This document shows, in pieces, positions 5,817 through 32,608 of a stretch of 38,140 nt of DNA (positions within the stretch are counted from its first letter, which is position 1; the number at the start of each line of letters is the position of its first letter). The DNA comes from Burkholderiales bacterium. GTDB taxonomy: Bacteria; Pseudomonadota; Gammaproteobacteria; Burkholderiales; SG8-41. The notes beneath the pieces were generated by a model that had not been told where the DNA came from, made no database searches, and saw only the letters and a list, made by a program, of their open reading frames with translations. The position numbers and the translations under genes are program-made. Where the stretch lies: assembly GCA_019751125.1 (NCBI GenBank), contig JAIENU010000169.1, positions 1 through 38,140 of the forward strand, read 5' to 3'.

Positions 5817-7109
5817 TCATATTGCACAGCTGCGGAAGCCGGCGAACACATCGTTGCGGTCGGGCGTATAAAAATTGCGCCAAGTATTCCGGATCAGTGT
5901 ATCGCGCGTGGCATGGCAGCCGCCGCGCAGCACCTTGTGGCTGCCGAACCAGGGCTCCGAATACTCGGCATAGGGATCGCGGACAAAGCCCGGATATGGC
6001 TGAAACCAGTCGACCGTCCATTCCCAGACATTGCCGGTCATCTGGCGCAGTCCCCAGGCGCTGTCACCCGCCGCACAGGCATTGACCGGCACACAGCGGC
6101 CGGCCGTGCCGTAAAGATTGGCCCGTTCCGCCGAAGGTGCTTCGTCCCCCCAGGGATGGCGGCGTTTCAGGCCAGGCGAGCCGGGCACGGTGGCCGCCGC
6201 ATATTCCCATTCCGCCTCGGTCGGCAGGCGGCGGCCGGCCCAGCGGCACCAGGCTTCGGCTTCGTACCAGCTGACATGAATCACCGGGTGATGAAGCGGC
6301 AAGCGCTCCATGCGATCGTGGCAGCGCCAGTGCCAGCGGCCATCGACGCGCTGCCAGTAGCGCGGCATTTCAATGCCGGCACTTTCACGCCACTGCCAGC
6401 CGGCCTCGCTCCACCATTCGCGGCGGCGATAACCACCCGCCTCGACAAATTCGGAAAAATCCCCGTTACTGACCGCGGCCCTGGCGATACGGAAATCCCG
6501 TATCTCGATGTCATGCGCATATTTCTCATTGTCGAATACAAAACCGCTGCCGCGTTCGGCCCCCATCCGGAAACGGCCGCCCTGCACCTCGGCATCACCG
6601 GGCCATGCCGCCCCCTCGACCGCGGCATTGGCAGCTGCCGGTGCCGGATACGCCAGCGTTTGCCGGGTATAAGTCAGCGCTTCGGCATGCATTTCCTCGT
6701 GTAACGCGCTGAGCTGGCCGAAATAAGCGAGCGCCGGCCTGTCCGCCAGCGCGGAGATGACGCGGCTGCGCACCTGATCGAGATAACGCCGGGTTGCGTC
6801 CGGATCAGGCAGGGGCAGCGACCAGCGTGTGCCATGGGCCACCCGTGCCGAGTCATACAGCCGGTCAGCCCGCTCCAGCACGCTCGCAGCCTGATGACTG
6901 CCGCCACGCAGGCACCAGAATTCCTCGAACCAGCCGAGATGCCCCAATTCCCACAAGGGCGGATTGACGATGGCCAGTTGCGGCCCCAGCCATTGCCCGG
7001 AATGCAGATCCGCAATCAGGCCCAGCGTGCGCTGTCGCGCAGCATCCAGCATGGCGAGAATCTGCGGCAGCGGTGTTGATGTGCTGTTTGAATCGGAAAG
7101 TTGCGACAA
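5817..7109 (-). CDS. senA: Selenoneine synthase SenA (EgtB-like)
   Basis: SenA is an EgtB relative that joins hercynine to a selenosugar by forming a C-Se bond in selenoneine synthesis, as known for Variovorax. Numbering from the internal ATG at 7052, there is a DinB-like N-terminal domain with the three iron-ligand histidines expected of EgtB enzymes: His38 (WELGHLGW) and His118/His122 (LHEEMHAE). A C-terminal formylglycine-generating-enzyme-like domain follows (HVSWYEAEAWCRWAGRRLPT, TGNVWEWTVDWF, KVLRGGCHATRD, AGFRSCA). The start is uncertain. The only plausible in-frame choices are TTG at 7109 (430 aa) and ATG at 7052 (411 aa), neither with a clear ribosome site. I chose TTG because the ATG would trim the first conserved helix. 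Automatic annotation would probably say EgtB; the SenA call rests on the divergent senB neighbour. Confidence 0.85.
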   Translation of the reverse strand: MSQLSDSNSTSTPLPQILAMLDAARQRTLGLIADLHSGQWLGPQLAIVNPPLWELGHLGWFEEFWCLRGGSHQAASVLERADRLYDSARVAHGTRWSLPLPDPDATRRYLDQVRSRVISALADRPALAYFGQLSALHEEMHAEALTYTRQTLAYPAPAAANAAVEGAAWPGDAEVQGGRFRMGAERGSGFVFDNEKYAHDIEIRDFRIARAAVSNGDFSEFVEAGGYRRREWWSEAGWQWRESAGIEMPRYWQRVDGRWHWRCHDRMERLPLHHPVIHVSWYEAEAWCRWAGRRLPTEAEWEYAAATVPGSPGLKRRHPWGDEAPSAERANLYGTAGRCVPVNACAAGDSAWGLRQMTGNVWEWTVDWFQPYPGFVRDPYAEYSEPWFGSHKVLRGGCHATRDTLIRNTWRNFYTPDRNDVFAGFRSCAI

Positions 7110-7137
7110 GCGGACAGCCCGGTTTGGTATAGTCCGC
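7110..7137. promoter_or_regulatory. Inverted repeat and candidate senB promoter in senA/senB gap
   Basis: GCGGAC (7110-7115) and GTCCGC (7132-7137) form a perfect 6-bp inverted repeat with a 16-base spacer, so the half-sites are 22 bases centre to centre, about two helical turns. The right arm overlaps a TATAGT -10-like hexamer at 7128-7133 that would drive senB; the matching -35 region is poor. It sits between the two divergent genes, so one regulator could control both. The repeat is seen directly; operator function is inference. Confidence 0.35.
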
Positions 7138-7160
7138 GGCAGTTTATCCGCTCTGTGCTG

Positions 7161-8117
7161 ATGATGAAAATTGCCTTGATTACGCCGGCCGCGGCCACCT
7201 CGCGCTACGGCAACCGCAACACCGCCGTGCGCTGGGCCGGGTTGCTGCGCGAGTTGGGCCACCAGGTCAGCATTGCCGAACACTGGAATGGCCGCAATGC
7301 CGACCTGATGCTTGCCCTGCATGCCCGGCGCAGCCATGACTCGATCGCGCGGTTTGCCGAGCGACACCCCCAGCGGCCGCTGCTGCTCGCACTGACCGGC
7401 ACCGACCTCTACCGCGACATCCGTGAAGATGCCAATGCCCAGGAATCGATGGCACTGGCGACGCGGATGATCGTGCTGCAGCCGCTGGGCCTGCGCGAAC
7501 TGTCGCCCCCGCTGCGCCGCAAGACCGATGTGGTGCTGCAGTCCTGCGAGGCGATCAGGCGTCTGCGTCCCCTGCCCGGCTGTTTCGAGATCGTGGTCAG
7601 CGGCCATCTGCGTGATGAAAAGGATCCTTTTCGTGGTGCCGAGGCGCTGTCGCTGTTGCCCGCCTCAAGCCGCATCCGCATCACCCATATCGGCGGCGCG
7701 CGCGACCCGGCGCTGGCACGCGAGGCGCGGCAGTGGATGAAACGGGAGCCGCGTTACCAGTGGCTGGACGAACTGCCGCGTGCCCGTGCGCTGGCCACGC
7801 TGGCGCGGGCAAGGCTGATGCTGATCAGTTCGAAGCTGGAAGGTGGCGCCAATGTTGTCAGCGAGGCACTGACCGCGGGGGTGCCGGTGCTGGCCTCACG
7901 CATCCCCGGCAATGTCGGCCTGCTGGGCAAGGACTACCGCGGCTTTTTTCCCGTCGGCAACTCTGCTGCGCTGGCCCGGCTGATGGCGCGGTCGGAGCAA
8001 TCGCCTGATTTTCTGGCCGGATTGCAGGCCGCCTGTCGCCGGCAAAGGCGGCTGGTCAGTCGCAGCAATGAACGCCGTGCGCTGCGTGCCGTGATTAAAG
8101 CGGTCACTGAAAAATAG
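7161..8117 (+). CDS. senB: Selenosugar synthase SenB, GT-B glycosyltransferase-like
   Basis: SenB makes a 1-seleno-sugar from selenophosphate and a UDP-sugar, the selenium donor for SenA. The 318-residue protein begins MMKIALITPAAATSRYGNRN, has LTGTDLYRD at about residues 78-86 and ends with a GT4-type C-terminal domain. That domain carries SKLEGGANVVSEALTAGVPV, including the E-x7-E pair (Glu227 and Glu235). This is the pattern of the family long annotated as a putative glycosyltransferase (TIGR04348) and later assigned as SenB. ATG codons at 7161 and 7164 are both possible; no strong ribosome site is visible. It is divergent from senA and convergent with rnhB. No senC/selD selenophosphate synthetase follows. 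The family assignment is strong; substrate preference is not visible. Confidence 0.88.
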   Translation: MMKIALITPAAATSRYGNRNTAVRWAGLLRELGHQVSIAEHWNGRNADLMLALHARRSHDSIARFAERHPQRPLLLALTGTDLYRDIREDANAQESMALATRMIVLQPLGLRELSPPLRRKTDVVLQSCEAIRRLRPLPGCFEIVVSGHLRDEKDPFRGAEALSLLPASSRIRITHIGGARDPALAREARQWMKREPRYQWLDELPRARALATLARARLMLISSKLEGGANVVSEALTAGVPVLASRIPGNVGLLGKDYRGFFPVGNSAALARLMARSEQSPDFLAGLQAACRRQRRLVSRSNERRALRAVIKAVTEK

Positions 8118-26137: not shown

Positions 26138-27832
26138 TCATGCCAGGCCCTGGTTGCCACCCATGCCGATCAGGCGCGGCAGATTGGGCCGCCGTGGCTT
26201 GACCGTCTTGATCTGTTTCAGATAATTCTCCACCACTTCCCACACCGGCTCGCCAATCGCGCCGGGATTGACCGGCGCCCAACCCGCCACCTTGTAGCGT
26301 TTGCCGGCCTCAATCAGCTGGCCACCGATGCGCATGTCATCAATGCGCTTGCCCATGGCCGCCCGCGGATCACAGCTGTAGGTCAGTCCGCCCACACGCA
26401 CCATGTCACCGCCCTGCTGCAGGTAGGGATCCGGATTGAACAGGTTGTCGCAGACATCCTCGAGGATGATCTTGATGTCGGCACCGGAAATTTCGTTGAC
26501 CGTGACCGTCGGGTAGGTGATCGCGGTCTGGTCCATCAGGTGTTCGCGCAGGATGGTCTGCCCCGGCAGCAGCGTAGTACCCCAGCGGAAACCCGGGGAA
26601 AAGCCGATCTCGGCACCTTTTACTGACATCAGGGCATCGAGGATCAACTGGTCAAAAGTGCCGTTGAAATTGCCGCGCCGGTAGAGCAGCCCTTCGGTCA
26701 CGGCCAGGGGTTCGCGCAGCTTTGCGGCGAACGGCGCACGCACGCGATCGATCAGATTCTGCATCTGCGCATCGGCCGGCAGCAGGTTCGAAAACACCGG
26801 CAACAGGCGGTAGCGGAAATCTGAGACACCGCTGCTGCTGACATCAAGATCGAGTACGGCGAGGAATTTGCCGTTGGAACCGGCATTGGTAACGACGGTC
26901 TTGCCGCCGCCATTGCTGACCACCACCGGCACCGGCACGCCGTCATGGGTGTGGCCGCCGAGGATGGCATCGATGCCACGCACCCGGCCGGCGAGCTTGA
27001 CGTCGACATCCATGCCGTTGTGCGACAGCAACACTACTGCACGAGCGCCCTTGGCGCGCACTTCATTGACCAGGTCCTGCAGCTCGGACTCCTGGATGCC
27101 GAAGGTCCACTCCGGCACCAGATAGCGTGGATTCGCGATCGGCGTGTACGGAAAAGCCTGGCCGATGATCGCCACCGGCACGCCGTTCATTTCGCGGATC
27201 ACCCAGGGTTTGAACACCGGATCGCCGAAATCAGTGGTCTTCACGTTATGCGCCAGGAATTCGATCGGCGCCAGCGACTTGACCGCCTCCTGCACGCGAT
27301 GGTCGCCGTAGGTGAATTCCCAGTGCGCGGTCATGATGTCGACGCCAAGCTGCTTGCAGGCGTCGATCATGTCCTGCCCCTTGGTCCACAGCGCGGTGGC
27401 CGAACCTTGCCAGGTGTCGCCGCCGTCGAGCAGCAATGCACCGGGCCGGCTTGCACGCAGGCGCTTGACCAGCGTGGTCATATGGGCAAACCCGCCGACC
27501 TTGCCGTAACGCCGTGCCGCGGCCGCGAAATCAAGATAGGTGAAGGCATGTGCTTCGGCGGTTCCGGGCGTGATGCCGGCCTGTTTCAGCAGATGCTCGC
27601 CGACCAGGTGGGGAAACCGTCCCGCCGACTCGCCAACGCCGATGTTGGCACTCGGCTCGCGGAAATGGATCGGCAGCAGCTGCGCATGGCAGTCCGTGAA
27701 ATGCAGCAGGCTGACATTGCCGAAGCGCGGCAGGTCGTACAGCTTCTGTGCAACCTGGGCATGCGCCGCATCAAGTGGCACGCCGCAGGCCGCCGCCGCG
27801 GCCAGCGTGCCCAGGAATTCCCTGCGGTTCAC
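26138..27832 (-). CDS. soxB: Thiosulfohydrolase SoxB
   Basis: SoxB releases sulfate from the cysteine S-thiosulfonate on SoxY in the periplasm, using two manganese ions. The 564-residue precursor has a twin-arginine signal (NRREFLG) with cleavage probably near AHA. The 5'-nucleotidase-like motifs follow: LLHFTDCHA (Asp47, His49), DGGDTW (Asp136, Asp139), AHWEFTYG (His170, Glu172) and GGHTHDG. The start is the GTG at 27832, whose first bases overlap the soxX TGA stop as GTGA, implying coupled translation. The frame is open far upstream through soxX, but that is a shadow. It is the last gene of the sox operon and convergent with glnD. Confidence 0.96.
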   Translation of the reverse strand: MNRREFLGTLAAAAACGVPLDAAHAQVAQKLYDLPRFGNVSLLHFTDCHAQLLPIHFREPSANIGVGESAGRFPHLVGEHLLKQAGITPGTAEAHAFTYLDFAAAARRYGKVGGFAHMTTLVKRLRASRPGALLLDGGDTWQGSATALWTKGQDMIDACKQLGVDIMTAHWEFTYGDHRVQEAVKSLAPIEFLAHNVKTTDFGDPVFKPWVIREMNGVPVAIIGQAFPYTPIANPRYLVPEWTFGIQESELQDLVNEVRAKGARAVVLLSHNGMDVDVKLAGRVRGIDAILGGHTHDGVPVPVVVSNGGGKTVVTNAGSNGKFLAVLDLDVSSSGVSDFRYRLLPVFSNLLPADAQMQNLIDRVRAPFAAKLREPLAVTEGLLYRRGNFNGTFDQLILDALMSVKGAEIGFSPGFRWGTTLLPGQTILREHLMDQTAITYPTVTVNEISGADIKIILEDVCDNLFNPDPYLQQGGDMVRVGGLTYSCDPRAAMGKRIDDMRIGGQLIEAGKRYKVAGWAPVNPGAIGEPVWEVVENYLKQIKTVKPRRPNLPRLIGMGGNQGLA

Positions 27833-28458
27833 TGGTTTACCGGTGAATTCGGATCCAGCAGCAGCGCGGTGACATCCCTGATCTGCTGCTCGGTGAGGAT
27901 GCCGTTGTGGCCGAAACGCGGCATGTTGGAACAGGCAGTGAAAGCCTGCGGGTTGTAGATGCGGCCGTAGGTGTAGCGCTGCATCTCGGGCGAGGCGCCA
28001 CCCCGGAGCTTGCCGTAGTTGTACAGGCTGGGCCCGATGGTGCCGAAGGAAATCTCCTCCTTGCTGACCTGATGGCAGGCGTAGCAGTTGCCACCCGAAG
28101 GGGTTTTCGGATTGTCGGAGAACTGCATGCCGACGCCCGTCTGCGCGATGCGCTCGCCGGCGCGCCAGTCGCCCATCAGATTGCCGTCTGCCGGATACTT
28201 GATCGCGGCAAAATTCGCTTTCTCGATGCGCGCCGCAAGTTCCTTGGCGATGGTCACCGTCGGCGGGTTGCTGCAATGTTTTTGCGCATCATCCTGATCC
28301 AGCCGGTCCAGTCCTGCCTGGCCTTGCGCCCTGAACGAGGCCTTGATGATGTTGAGGTCTTCCGCAGTCACCGCCTCCATCTGGCGGGGACCGGTTGCAC
28401 AGCCTGCGGCTACCAGCACGGAGACTACAGCGGGCAATGCCCAATACACCGGTTTCAT
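27829..28458 (-). CDS. soxX: Sulfur oxidation c-type cytochrome SoxX
   Basis: SoxX is the electron-accepting partner of SoxA; the pair attaches thiosulfate to SoxY. The 209-residue precursor has one haem site, CYACH (Cys125, Cys128, His129), and the distal Met in SNMPRFG (Met179), typical of SoxX. The N-terminus MKPVYWALPAVVSVLVAAGC looks like a lipoprotein signal with Cys20, so the protein may be membrane-anchored. About 100 residues lie before the haem domain, the long form of the family. Cys62 and Cys176 could form a disulfide. The ATG at 28458 is preferred because GAGGAG lies at good spacing; the ATG at 28467 abuts that site. It is 13 bases after soxA. Confidence 0.95.
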   Translation of the reverse strand: MKPVYWALPAVVSVLVAAGCATGPRQMEAVTAEDLNIIKASFRAQGQAGLDRLDQDDAQKHCSNPPTVTIAKELAARIEKANFAAIKYPADGNLMGDWRAGERIAQTGVGMQFSDNPKTPSGGNCYACHQVSKEEISFGTIGPSLYNYGKLRGGASPEMQRYTYGRIYNPQAFTACSNMPRFGHNGILTEQQIRDVTALLLDPNSPVNQ

Positions 28459-30315: not shown

Positions 30316-31332
30316 TTACTCGGCCTTCAAAATCCACTGCACCATGGCGCGCAGGTCCTGCTCCTGCAGATTCTGGAACGGGGGCATGGGCGTGGTGCCC
30401 CAGACCCCCTGGCCGCCGGCGCGAACCTTGGCAACAAGCCTCGATTCTGCACCGGAATCACCACGGTATTTTGAAGCAATTTCGGCCAGTGCGGGCCCGA
30501 TCGTGCGCTGTTTTGGCGCATGACAGGCCAGGCAACCGTTTTTATCGGCCAGACTGCGGCCCGGATCCGACACCACAGCCGGTGCGGCCGCCGGAACCGC
30601 CGATGCCACTGGCAACGCTGCCATGCGCACCGGCCCGAATAGCCGGTACTGCTCAACAAGGTCACCATGAGATCCTGCGGCATGGTCAGGCAGTTGCGAG
30701 GTGATGCGTGGTTCCGGACCACAGTTGCGCATGCAGGCCACTGCCTTGACGTCCGGCTTGCCACGCGTTTCCCACAGGCCGTGCTTGCGGGTCATGCCGT
30801 TGCGGTTGGGCAGGCGCGCCTGCACCTCGGCCATGTTTTTGTCGGACAGCACGAAACTGCCGGGAACGATATTGCCCTGGTGCAGGATGTAGGCTGTCAA
30901 CGCATACACCTCGTCGGCTGTCAGTGTCTTCGGTGCCTGCCAGGGCATTGCGCGGTTGATGTAGTCCCAAAGCGTGGAAATTTTCGACAGCTTCATCACC
31001 GTGCTGCGCTGTTCCCCGCCTTTCGCCAGCCCGGCGACACGGCCGGTCCTGATGTCCTCCGCGGTGACGCCACCGATCAGCGGCGGGAAGAACTGGTTCG
31101 ATTCGCCGAAGCTGCCGTGACAGGACGCACACTTGGCCTCCCACACCACTTCACCGTGGGACACGCTGCCCGATCCGGGAGGGAGCCCCTTGAAATCCCC
31201 GCGGACATCAGTATCCCAGGCTGCAATTTCAGCCGGTGTCGCGGCACGGCCGATGCCGGAATGCTGCGCCCAGGCCTGATTCGCGGCCAGCACCAGCGCC
31301 ATTGCACAAAGCGCCTTATTCCACCTGGACAT
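30316..31332 (-). CDS. soxD: SoxD dihaem cytochrome c (sulfane dehydrogenase subunit)
   Basis: SoxD is the electron-transfer subunit of sulfane dehydrogenase SoxCD, which oxidises the sulfane sulfur left on SoxY and takes up six electrons. The 338-residue precursor has a signal peptide ending NQAWA and two haem sites, CASCH (Cys68, Cys71, His72) and CLACH (Cys267, Cys270, His271), joined by a long linker with a Pro/Ala-rich segment. The ATG at 31332 lies inside soxC (17-base overlap) with GAGG six bases upstream; a longer open frame extends further into soxC but lacks a signal peptide. Confidence 0.94.
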   Translation of the reverse strand: MSRWNKALCAMALVLAANQAWAQHSGIGRAATPAEIAAWDTDVRGDFKGLPPGSGSVSHGEVVWEAKCASCHGSFGESNQFFPPLIGGVTAEDIRTGRVAGLAKGGEQRSTVMKLSKISTLWDYINRAMPWQAPKTLTADEVYALTAYILHQGNIVPGSFVLSDKNMAEVQARLPNRNGMTRKHGLWETRGKPDVKAVACMRNCGPEPRITSQLPDHAAGSHGDLVEQYRLFGPVRMAALPVASAVPAAAPAVVSDPGRSLADKNGCLACHAPKQRTIGPALAEIASKYRGDSGAESRLVAKVRAGGQGVWGTTPMPPFQNLQEQDLRAMVQWILKAE

Positions 31333-32608
31333 TGGAAACCTCGCCGCTGGCCGCGACCAGCCAGGACTGGATGGCGTTGTTGTGATAAATCGAGCGCGTG
31401 CCGCGCACCGCACGCAGTTGCGCAATCTTCGGCTGCACATAGCCGGTGTCGTCGATTGCACGGCTTTGCAGGATGGCCGGACGGCCATCCCAGTTCCAGG
31501 CCATGTTGAAACGGGTCAATGCCTTGGGCAGCACCGGCGTTTCCAGCCTAGCAGTCTTCCAGTTGCGTCCACCGTCAACGGAAACATCGACGCGACGGAT
31601 GCGACCGCGGCCGGACCAGGCCAGGCCGGTAACGTTGTACTGCCCCTTGTTCAGCAGCACCTGTCCGCCGGAGGGTGTGGTGATCACCGATTTGCACTCC
31701 TGCACCGAGCTGTACTGGCGGTGCAGCCCGTCCGGCATCAGGTCGATGTAGTGCAAGGCTTCTTCGCGCGTATCCCAGGGCTGGTCGCCGACTTCGAGGC
31801 GACGCAGCCATTTCACCCAGGACACACCCTGCACGCCCGGCACCACCAGCCGCAGCGGATACCCGTTCTCCGGCCGCAGGCACTCGCCATTCATCGCCCA
31901 GGCCACGATCACGTCATCCAGCGCGCGCTCCATGCCGATGGTACGGGTCAGGCCCGAGCCGTCCGCACCTTCAGCGAGGATGTAACGGCCCTTCTTAACA
32001 TCGGCGCCGCAATGCTCCAGCAGCGTGGCCAGGCGCACACCGGTGAATTCACAGCAGGACAGCATGCCGTGGCTGTATTGCACGGTGGGTACCGCGACGT
32101 TGGCCCACTCCATGCCGCTGTTGGCGCCGCATTCGATGAAATGGATGCGCGAGACCGATGGCAGGCGCATCAGGTCATCCATCGTGTAGACCTTGGCCTC
32201 GCGGACCAGTCCGTGCAGCATCAGCCGGTGCTGGCGCGGGTCGATGTCCCACCAGCCCTGGTGATGGCGTTCGAAATGCAGGCCGTTGGGCGTGATGATG
32301 CCGAACAGTCCCTGCAACGGCGCAAACGCCACCGAGGACTGTGAAACCCGTGTCAGGCCCGGGCTCTCCCGGCGCTGCAGGTTTTTTTCGTATTCCGAAG
32401 GTTTGCCGTAGCCGCGCGCCGCCACCGGCTGGCCAAGGCCGGTACTGTGCGCCGGCAACTGCAGGATGGCCGGATCACCCTGAGCCATCGCAGCACCTCC
32501 TGACAGCGCAGCCACAGCGCCACCGGTCAGCGACAGCGACCTGCGCAGGAAACGGCGGCGGTCTTCCACCGCCGGCCGAACCTGGCCGATGGCGGTGATC
32601 CGCTTCAC
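31316..32608 (-). CDS. soxC: Sulfane dehydrogenase molybdopterin subunit SoxC
   Basis: SoxC is a sulfite-oxidase-family molybdenum enzyme and the catalytic part of SoxCD. The 430-residue precursor has a twin-arginine signal (DRRRFLRRSLSLTGG), the molybdenum-ligand cysteine in HFIECGANSGMEW (Cys160), the GVQGVSWVKWLRRLEV segment and a C-terminal immunoglobulin-like dimerisation domain. The start is the GTG at 32608, which overlaps the TGA of the upstream regulator as GTGA, so the two are probably translated in sequence. Having soxCD predicts complete oxidation of thiosulfate to sulfate without sulfur globules. Confidence 0.96.
   Translation of the reverse strand: MKRITAIGQVRPAVEDRRRFLRRSLSLTGGAVAALSGGAAMAQGDPAILQLPAHSTGLGQPVAARGYGKPSEYEKNLQRRESPGLTRVSQSSVAFAPLQGLFGIITPNGLHFERHHQGWWDIDPRQHRLMLHGLVREAKVYTMDDLMRLPSVSRIHFIECGANSGMEWANVAVPTVQYSHGMLSCCEFTGVRLATLLEHCGADVKKGRYILAEGADGSGLTRTIGMERALDDVIVAWAMNGECLRPENGYPLRLVVPGVQGVSWVKWLRRLEVGDQPWDTREEALHYIDLMPDGLHRQYSSVQECKSVITTPSGGQVLLNKGQYNVTGLAWSGRGRIRRVDVSVDGGRNWKTARLETPVLPKALTRFNMAWNWDGRPAILQSRAIDDTGYVQPKIAQLRAVRGTRSIYHNNAIQSWLVAASGEVSNVQVE

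Follow-up and report, generated by a model that had tools for sequence, protein, structure and literature searches.

How can a pair of selenoneine genes work when the gene expected to supply their selenium is missing from the locus? This question is raised by a divergent senA/senB pair in contig JAIENU010000169.1 of a Burkholderiales bacterium (assembly GCA_019751125.1, a draft that is 94% complete in 275 contigs); the whole stretch of 38,140 nucleotides is called the window below. A sequence-only reading had picked out the pair, noted that no senC/selD lies beside it and offered two ways out: a general SelD encoded elsewhere, or a different donor, such as sulfur. We favour the first. With a probability of about 0.85, SenA and SenB would belong to a selenoneine pathway that receives its selenophosphate in trans from a general SelD. 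This looks like a variant of the known pathway rather than new chemistry, because selD (in part) and egtD occur elsewhere in the draft genome.

The reactions, substrate and product that we infer for the pair form a short chain. SelD would make selenophosphate, which SenB would combine with a UDP-sugar before cleaving the Se-P bond to leave a 1-selenosugar. EgtD would trimethylate histidine to hercynine, and SenA, with iron and O2, would couple hercynine to the selenosugar, breakdown of the selenoxide then yielding selenoneine. In the literature, SelD and SenC are treated as the same activity (PMC10891094, PMC10903977).

Identity of SenA and SenB

senA (5817-7052, minus strand) is predicted to encode a non-haem iron selenoneine synthase of 411 amino acids, counted from an ATG at 7052, and senB (7161-8117, plus strand) a Se-glycosyltransferase of 318 amino acids, the predicted selenosugar synthase. 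Both names, like the divergent arrangement, had been proposed from the letters alone, and both proteins pass the NCBI cut-offs: SenA scores 494.7 bits against NF041186, the NCBIfam SenA equivalog (cut-off 420), and SenB 412.9 bits against TIGR04348 (cut-off 300). SenA also passes the signature model TIGR04373 (98.8 bits, cut-off 71) and stays under the cut-offs for EgtB (TIGR03440, 336.5 bits against 360) and for the N-terminal part of OvoA (TIGR04344, 150.9 bits against 400).

The three iron-ligand histidines named earlier, His38, His118 and His122, are indeed present, and these positions are histidine in 83/83 aligned sequences. Further into the active site, the pocket residues E119, A125, Y364, W368, N393 and F394 are the same letters as in SenA of Variovorax paradoxus. 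We compared these positions across a SenA tree of 94 rows, a quick tree with support from the Shimodaira-Hasegawa-like approximate likelihood ratio test (SH-aLRT) only, from which OvoA rows were left out and three EgtB-like rows (L183, L193, L213) excluded. Three groups are each set apart from the rest by a single branch: a window clade of 31 rows (support 91), a V. paradoxus side of 45 (support 85) and an OvsA group of 15 (support 98), the last made up of the 8ux5 chain and 14 of the 80 fetched OvsA-set loci, these being the best 80 of 345 relatives. The pocket reads EAYWNF in 30/31 window-clade rows and in 36/45 rows of the V. paradoxus side; it reads QSMQQA in 12/15 OvsA-group rows, and the window SenA carries no OvsA letters there. 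V. paradoxus-type SenA and OvsA have different fixed letters at 17 columns; at 14 of these the window clade is SenA-like, at one OvsA-like and at two mixed. Window SenA also keeps a 48-residue segment, residues 292-339 (6036-6179, minus strand, placed by alignment), as do 29/31 window-clade rows in all; on the V. paradoxus side, fewer than 25 of its 48 columns are filled in 35/45 rows. Two OvsA relatives from metagenome-assembled genomes deserve mention in their own right: an Anammoxibacter protein of the OvsA group (L304, 6001-7260) has the SenA-type pocket EAYWNF and is followed by a SenB-like gene, and an OvsA-type protein of Thiobacillus (L301, 6001-7293) has the pocket LSMQQA.

For SenB, the catalytic and pocket residues, including the catalytic K158, N20/T23/E231 and the selenophosphate pocket, are taken from PMC10891094. 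The counterparts of V. paradoxus N20, T23, H58, R61, T83, T85, D86, Q131, R155, K158, E231 and E239 are all identical in the window protein, and the commonest change among these twelve is R61 to K, in 11/118 rows. The window SenB differs from that of V. paradoxus at V157 (E), T214 (A) and H235 (N). We considered whether V157E and H235N mark a changed sugar pocket and rejected the idea, since both letters are common (E157, the usual SenB letter, in 114/118 rows and N235 in 84/118). Branches of support 99 split the SenB tree, likewise a quick one with SH-aLRT support, into a V. paradoxus half of 56 rows and a window half of 62, the latter holding all 31 partners of window-clade SenAs and four partners from the V. 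paradoxus side. The window SenA and SenB form lineages separate from those of V. paradoxus.

Sources of selenophosphate and hercynine

The absence of senC/selD from the locus, already pointed out, is real: tblastn of the window's first 15 kb finds neither selD nor egtD near senA-senB, and the linkage of selD/senC to senAB that marks a senABC cluster is absent from the window. Genome-wide, the selD and egtD matches sit on contigs other than the one with senA-senB. The idea of a general SelD elsewhere fared well. The genome holds a selD match (203 bits against TIGR00476, cut-off 125), selA (575.9 bits, cut-off 267.9), selB (421.7 bits, cut-off 242.25) and a selenocysteine tRNA (tRNA-Sec; 75.9 bits, gathering threshold 47). 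egtD, whose presence had likewise been put forward as a check, passes its cut-off (401.5 bits against 290.9), and selA, selB, egtD and tRNA-Sec share one contig. Near tRNA-Sec, selA-selB is followed by a gene for a thioredoxin-reductase-like protein (L305, 1122-2027), whose 229 bits fall short of the family cut-off.

The same genes recur in relatives. Across 30 genomes of the family, selD is found in 29, egtD in 30, SenA over its cut-off in 28 and a tRNA-Sec match of at least 74 bits in 28. Both selD and egtD are present in 31/31 genomes of the window SenA clade (for egtD, 11 through the family search and 20 through a hand-chosen set). In the order as a whole, SenB is above cut-off in 116/399 genomes and selD is present in 285/399; selD accompanies SenB in 114/116 SenB-positive genomes and occurs in 171/283 SenB-negative ones (Fisher p 7e-18). 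These co-occurrence figures ignore kinship, and the genomes are drafts. Because the draft has selD, egtD, selA, selB and tRNA-Sec, and because selD and egtD accompany the clade throughout, a missing donor is unlikely, and the selenium donor for the pair is likely the general SelD acting in trans.

What kind of SelD would this be? All full-length family copies (28/28) have one in-frame TGA, placed at the motif HGGG*GCK in 20/20 inspected (L035-L054). Across the order, SelD-like genes within about 7 kb of senB have a Cys codon at the motif in 44/47 cases, two loose matches (L139, L186) being excluded as non-SelD; the remaining three (L117, L180, L198; 33-36% identity) are more distant and lack the HGGGCGCK motif. 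The family SelD reads as a selenoprotein, unlike the Cys-type SelDs near senB elsewhere. In two genus members (G046, G233), selD is adjoined by mnmH, the gene for tRNA 2-selenouridine synthase. Given this selenocysteine-type reading of SelD and the adjoining mnmH, a single SelD probably supplies selenoproteins, tRNA and selenoneine alike, which would be a case of one selenoprotein-type SelD serving three selenium uses.

Hercynine can be approached in a similar way. The hand-chosen set covers 80 genomes, eight of them SenB-negative and 72 SenB-positive. EgtD is found in 55/56 of the SenB-positive genomes that have a SenA/EgtB protein and in 0/16 of those without one, six of the 16 having only an OvoA-like protein; kinship is again left uncorrected in these counts. 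Within the genus, none of the five members searched (5/5) has a second, EgtB-like match; one of the five has a second match of 98 bits, which we took as a formylglycine-enzyme relative. Since the genus has EgtD without an EgtB match, its hercynine most likely goes to selenoneine.

Other products and donors

Several observations weigh against a selenoneine pathway supplied in trans. The selD of the draft, present as expected, is only a C-terminal fragment covering profile positions 142-310, incomplete because the contig ends there; the active site lies outside it, and it reaches 239.6 bits against the stricter NF002098, under the cut-off of 299. Two of the 116 SenB-positive drafts, G002 (L116) and G198 (L167), have no selD match, and G084 (L141) has SenA with a linked SelD, yet no EgtD match. 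The partner of EgtD could instead be an oxygen-independent EanB-type synthase. In SenB, 9/31 window-clade rows depart from identity at one or more of the twelve residues. In SenA, the single diagnostic column at which the window clade matches OvsA is R388. The tree, finally, agrees with the earlier assignment in that the protein does not group with EgtB (OvoA rows left out), but it places the window SenA outside the characterised V. paradoxus SenA clade, in a third clade whose pocket is of the SenA type. A grouping of the window clade with OvsA is not rejected (p-AU, from the approximately unbiased test, 0.61), V. paradoxus with OvsA has a p-AU of 0.573, and the window with V. paradoxus SenA a support of 41. 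The tree alone is therefore silent on hercynine versus histidine.

An ovoselenol-type product would follow if SenA were functionally an OvsA that puts selenium onto unmethylated histidine, and a window clade sister to OvsA, which the p-AU of 0.61 neither shows nor rejects, would suit it. In a PDB search, the window SenA also scores 291.2 bits against the OvsA chain 8ux5, level with SenA. The chain itself partly accounts for this parity, because 8ux5 bears SenA letters at three pocket sites where it differs from a second OvsA chain, 8u41 (281.3 bits); these sites read M, Q and A in 8u41 and in 13/15 OvsA-group rows, and 8ux5 looks like an engineered OvsA variant. The contrast of pocket letters described above argues against an OvsA function, as does EgtD, present throughout the window clade and in 11/49 OvsA-set genomes searched (49 among the best 80 of 345). 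No OvsM relative was found in the 30 family genomes, including the source genome, a set that lacks a positive control. Nor was an OvsM-type methyltransferase found around the 116 senB genes, which is weak evidence because OvsM adjoins OvsA in only 35/80 loci (again the best 80 of 345). Taken together, we consider an ovoselenol-type product improbable, and pocket letters combined with EgtD offer a simple way of separating SenA from OvsA.

A sulfur donor, with the pair making a thiosugar or an ergothioneine-like product, would fit the sulfur oxidiser that the sequence-only reading had recognised: the window encodes SoxB (26138-28276, 860.6 bits) and the sulfite dehydrogenase SoxC (31316-32608, 616 bits), which suggests a thiosulfate-oxidising lifestyle, and sulfur and selenium chemistry are close. 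We found no support for such a donor. In fact, the conserved selenophosphate pocket of SenB and the selD found in every window-clade genome (common as selD is in the order) speak for selenium, and we hold a sulfur product to be very improbable. An ordinary EgtB making ergothioneine would account for the 336.5-bit match to the EgtB model, the shared fold family and the presence of EgtD. The protein nevertheless scores under the EgtB cut-off and over that of SenA, and it has H73 and Y395 at the sites matching EgtB Arg87 and Asp416, presumably the gamma-glutamylcysteine ligands. H73, R76 and W77 are common to SenA and OvsA, and senB is divergent from and adjacent to senA in 31/31 window-clade loci. 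An EgtB function is scarcely credible.

Locus layout, SenB without SenA, and known systems

To compare surroundings of senB, we used the window and the 115 other SenB-positive genomes. The divergent layout, also remarked on in the sequence-only reading, is no deviation: senA and senB are divergent and adjacent in 71/75 SenA-SenB loci (the three EgtB-like rows excluded), so that we rejected divergence as an unusual feature. In fact, loci with a linked selD on the V. paradoxus side are themselves divergent in 29/32 cases, and one divergent locus with linked selD lies on the window side. That locus is the only one of its clade with a linked selD; the available stretch shows none at 30/31 window-clade loci, of which 23 reach 5 kb or more in both directions from senB and seven fall short of that on one side. 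The neighbours of the window clade are instead rnhB (25/31), lpxB (24/31), trmH (22/31) and ppsR (22/31), none of which occurs at the 47 other SenA loci (the three EgtB-like rows counted).

Between the start codons lie 108 bp (7053-7160). The alternative TTG start of senA at 7109 would add 19 amino acids, and a listed open reading frame of 596 amino acids was rejected as an upstream over-extension. By eye, an extended -10-like sequence, TTTGNTATANT, directed at senB can be seen at 7123-7133, and it is present in 11/11 family senA-senB intergenic sequences inspected in the same manner; a scan of the region with the sigma-70 consensus reported no promoter. Downstream of TTTGNTATANT, genus members have a TATCCGGATA-like sequence, of which the window version is weaker.

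SenB also occurs by itself. In 16/116 SenB-positive genomes, SenB and SelD are found without SenA, EgtB or EgtD (L121, L125, L129, L132, L137, L142, L144 and L148, together with L165, L166, L168, L177, L181, L187, L197 and L216). Could SenB have a second, SenA-independent job, making another selenosugar or selenometabolite besides its part in selenoneine? This would be compatible with the selenoneine pathway. On the SenB tree, 14 of the 16 genomes belong to the half that holds the window protein, trmH lies within about 7 kb of senB in 9/16 of these loci, as in the window, and 15/16 of their SenBs match V. paradoxus SenB at all twelve residues. On the other hand, no recurrent enzyme partner is found within 4 kb of these senB genes, and selD may serve other selenium traits there. 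A role of the window's SenB lineage beyond selenoneine is thus a tentative proposal, which we would put at clearly less than even. If it were true, strains without SenA would make a selenosugar, either as end product or on the way to a selenometabolite not yet described, and the senA/senB pair of the window could be a branch point. In this respect, SenB without SenA is a more open lead than the window pair, which is a small departure from a known pathway.

The sen cluster was originally discovered through a search for genes overlapping selD (PMC9814287), and in a literature search of titles and abstract starts we found no paper naming a selD-free SenA/SenB lineage. A search for selD overlap would miss a lineage in which selD is unlinked, and likely selenoneine producers may therefore outnumber those reached by selD-linked mining.

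How, then, does the window pair compare with characterised systems? Its closest counterpart is senABC of V. paradoxus (SenA 8k5i/8ryz, SenB 8fbx/8jjq), with identities over the aligned positions of 47% for SenA and 43% for SenB. The two share the iron triad, the six pocket letters, the SenB catalytic set and the divergent layout; unlike senABC, the window pair has no linked selD/senC, belongs to separate SenA and SenB lineages and keeps the 48-residue segment in SenA, and its SenB has E and N at V157 and H235, E being the usual letter. EgtB (4x8b, the protein of Mycolicibacterium thermoresistibile) resembles the window SenA in fold family, iron triad, Y364 and N393, with 40% identity, but the window protein falls under the EgtB cut-off and has two gamma-glutamylcysteine ligands replaced. 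Finally, in the OvsA/ovoselenol locus of Halomonas (Vreelandella) utahensis (L225), as in the window, a SenB-like gene adjoins an EgtB-fold selenoxide synthase, here an OvsA 40% identical to the window SenA. Unlike the window, this locus has the OvsA pocket Q-S-M-Q-Q-A, and ovsA is followed by a methyltransferase of the OvoA C-terminal type (TIGR04345, 277.5 bits).

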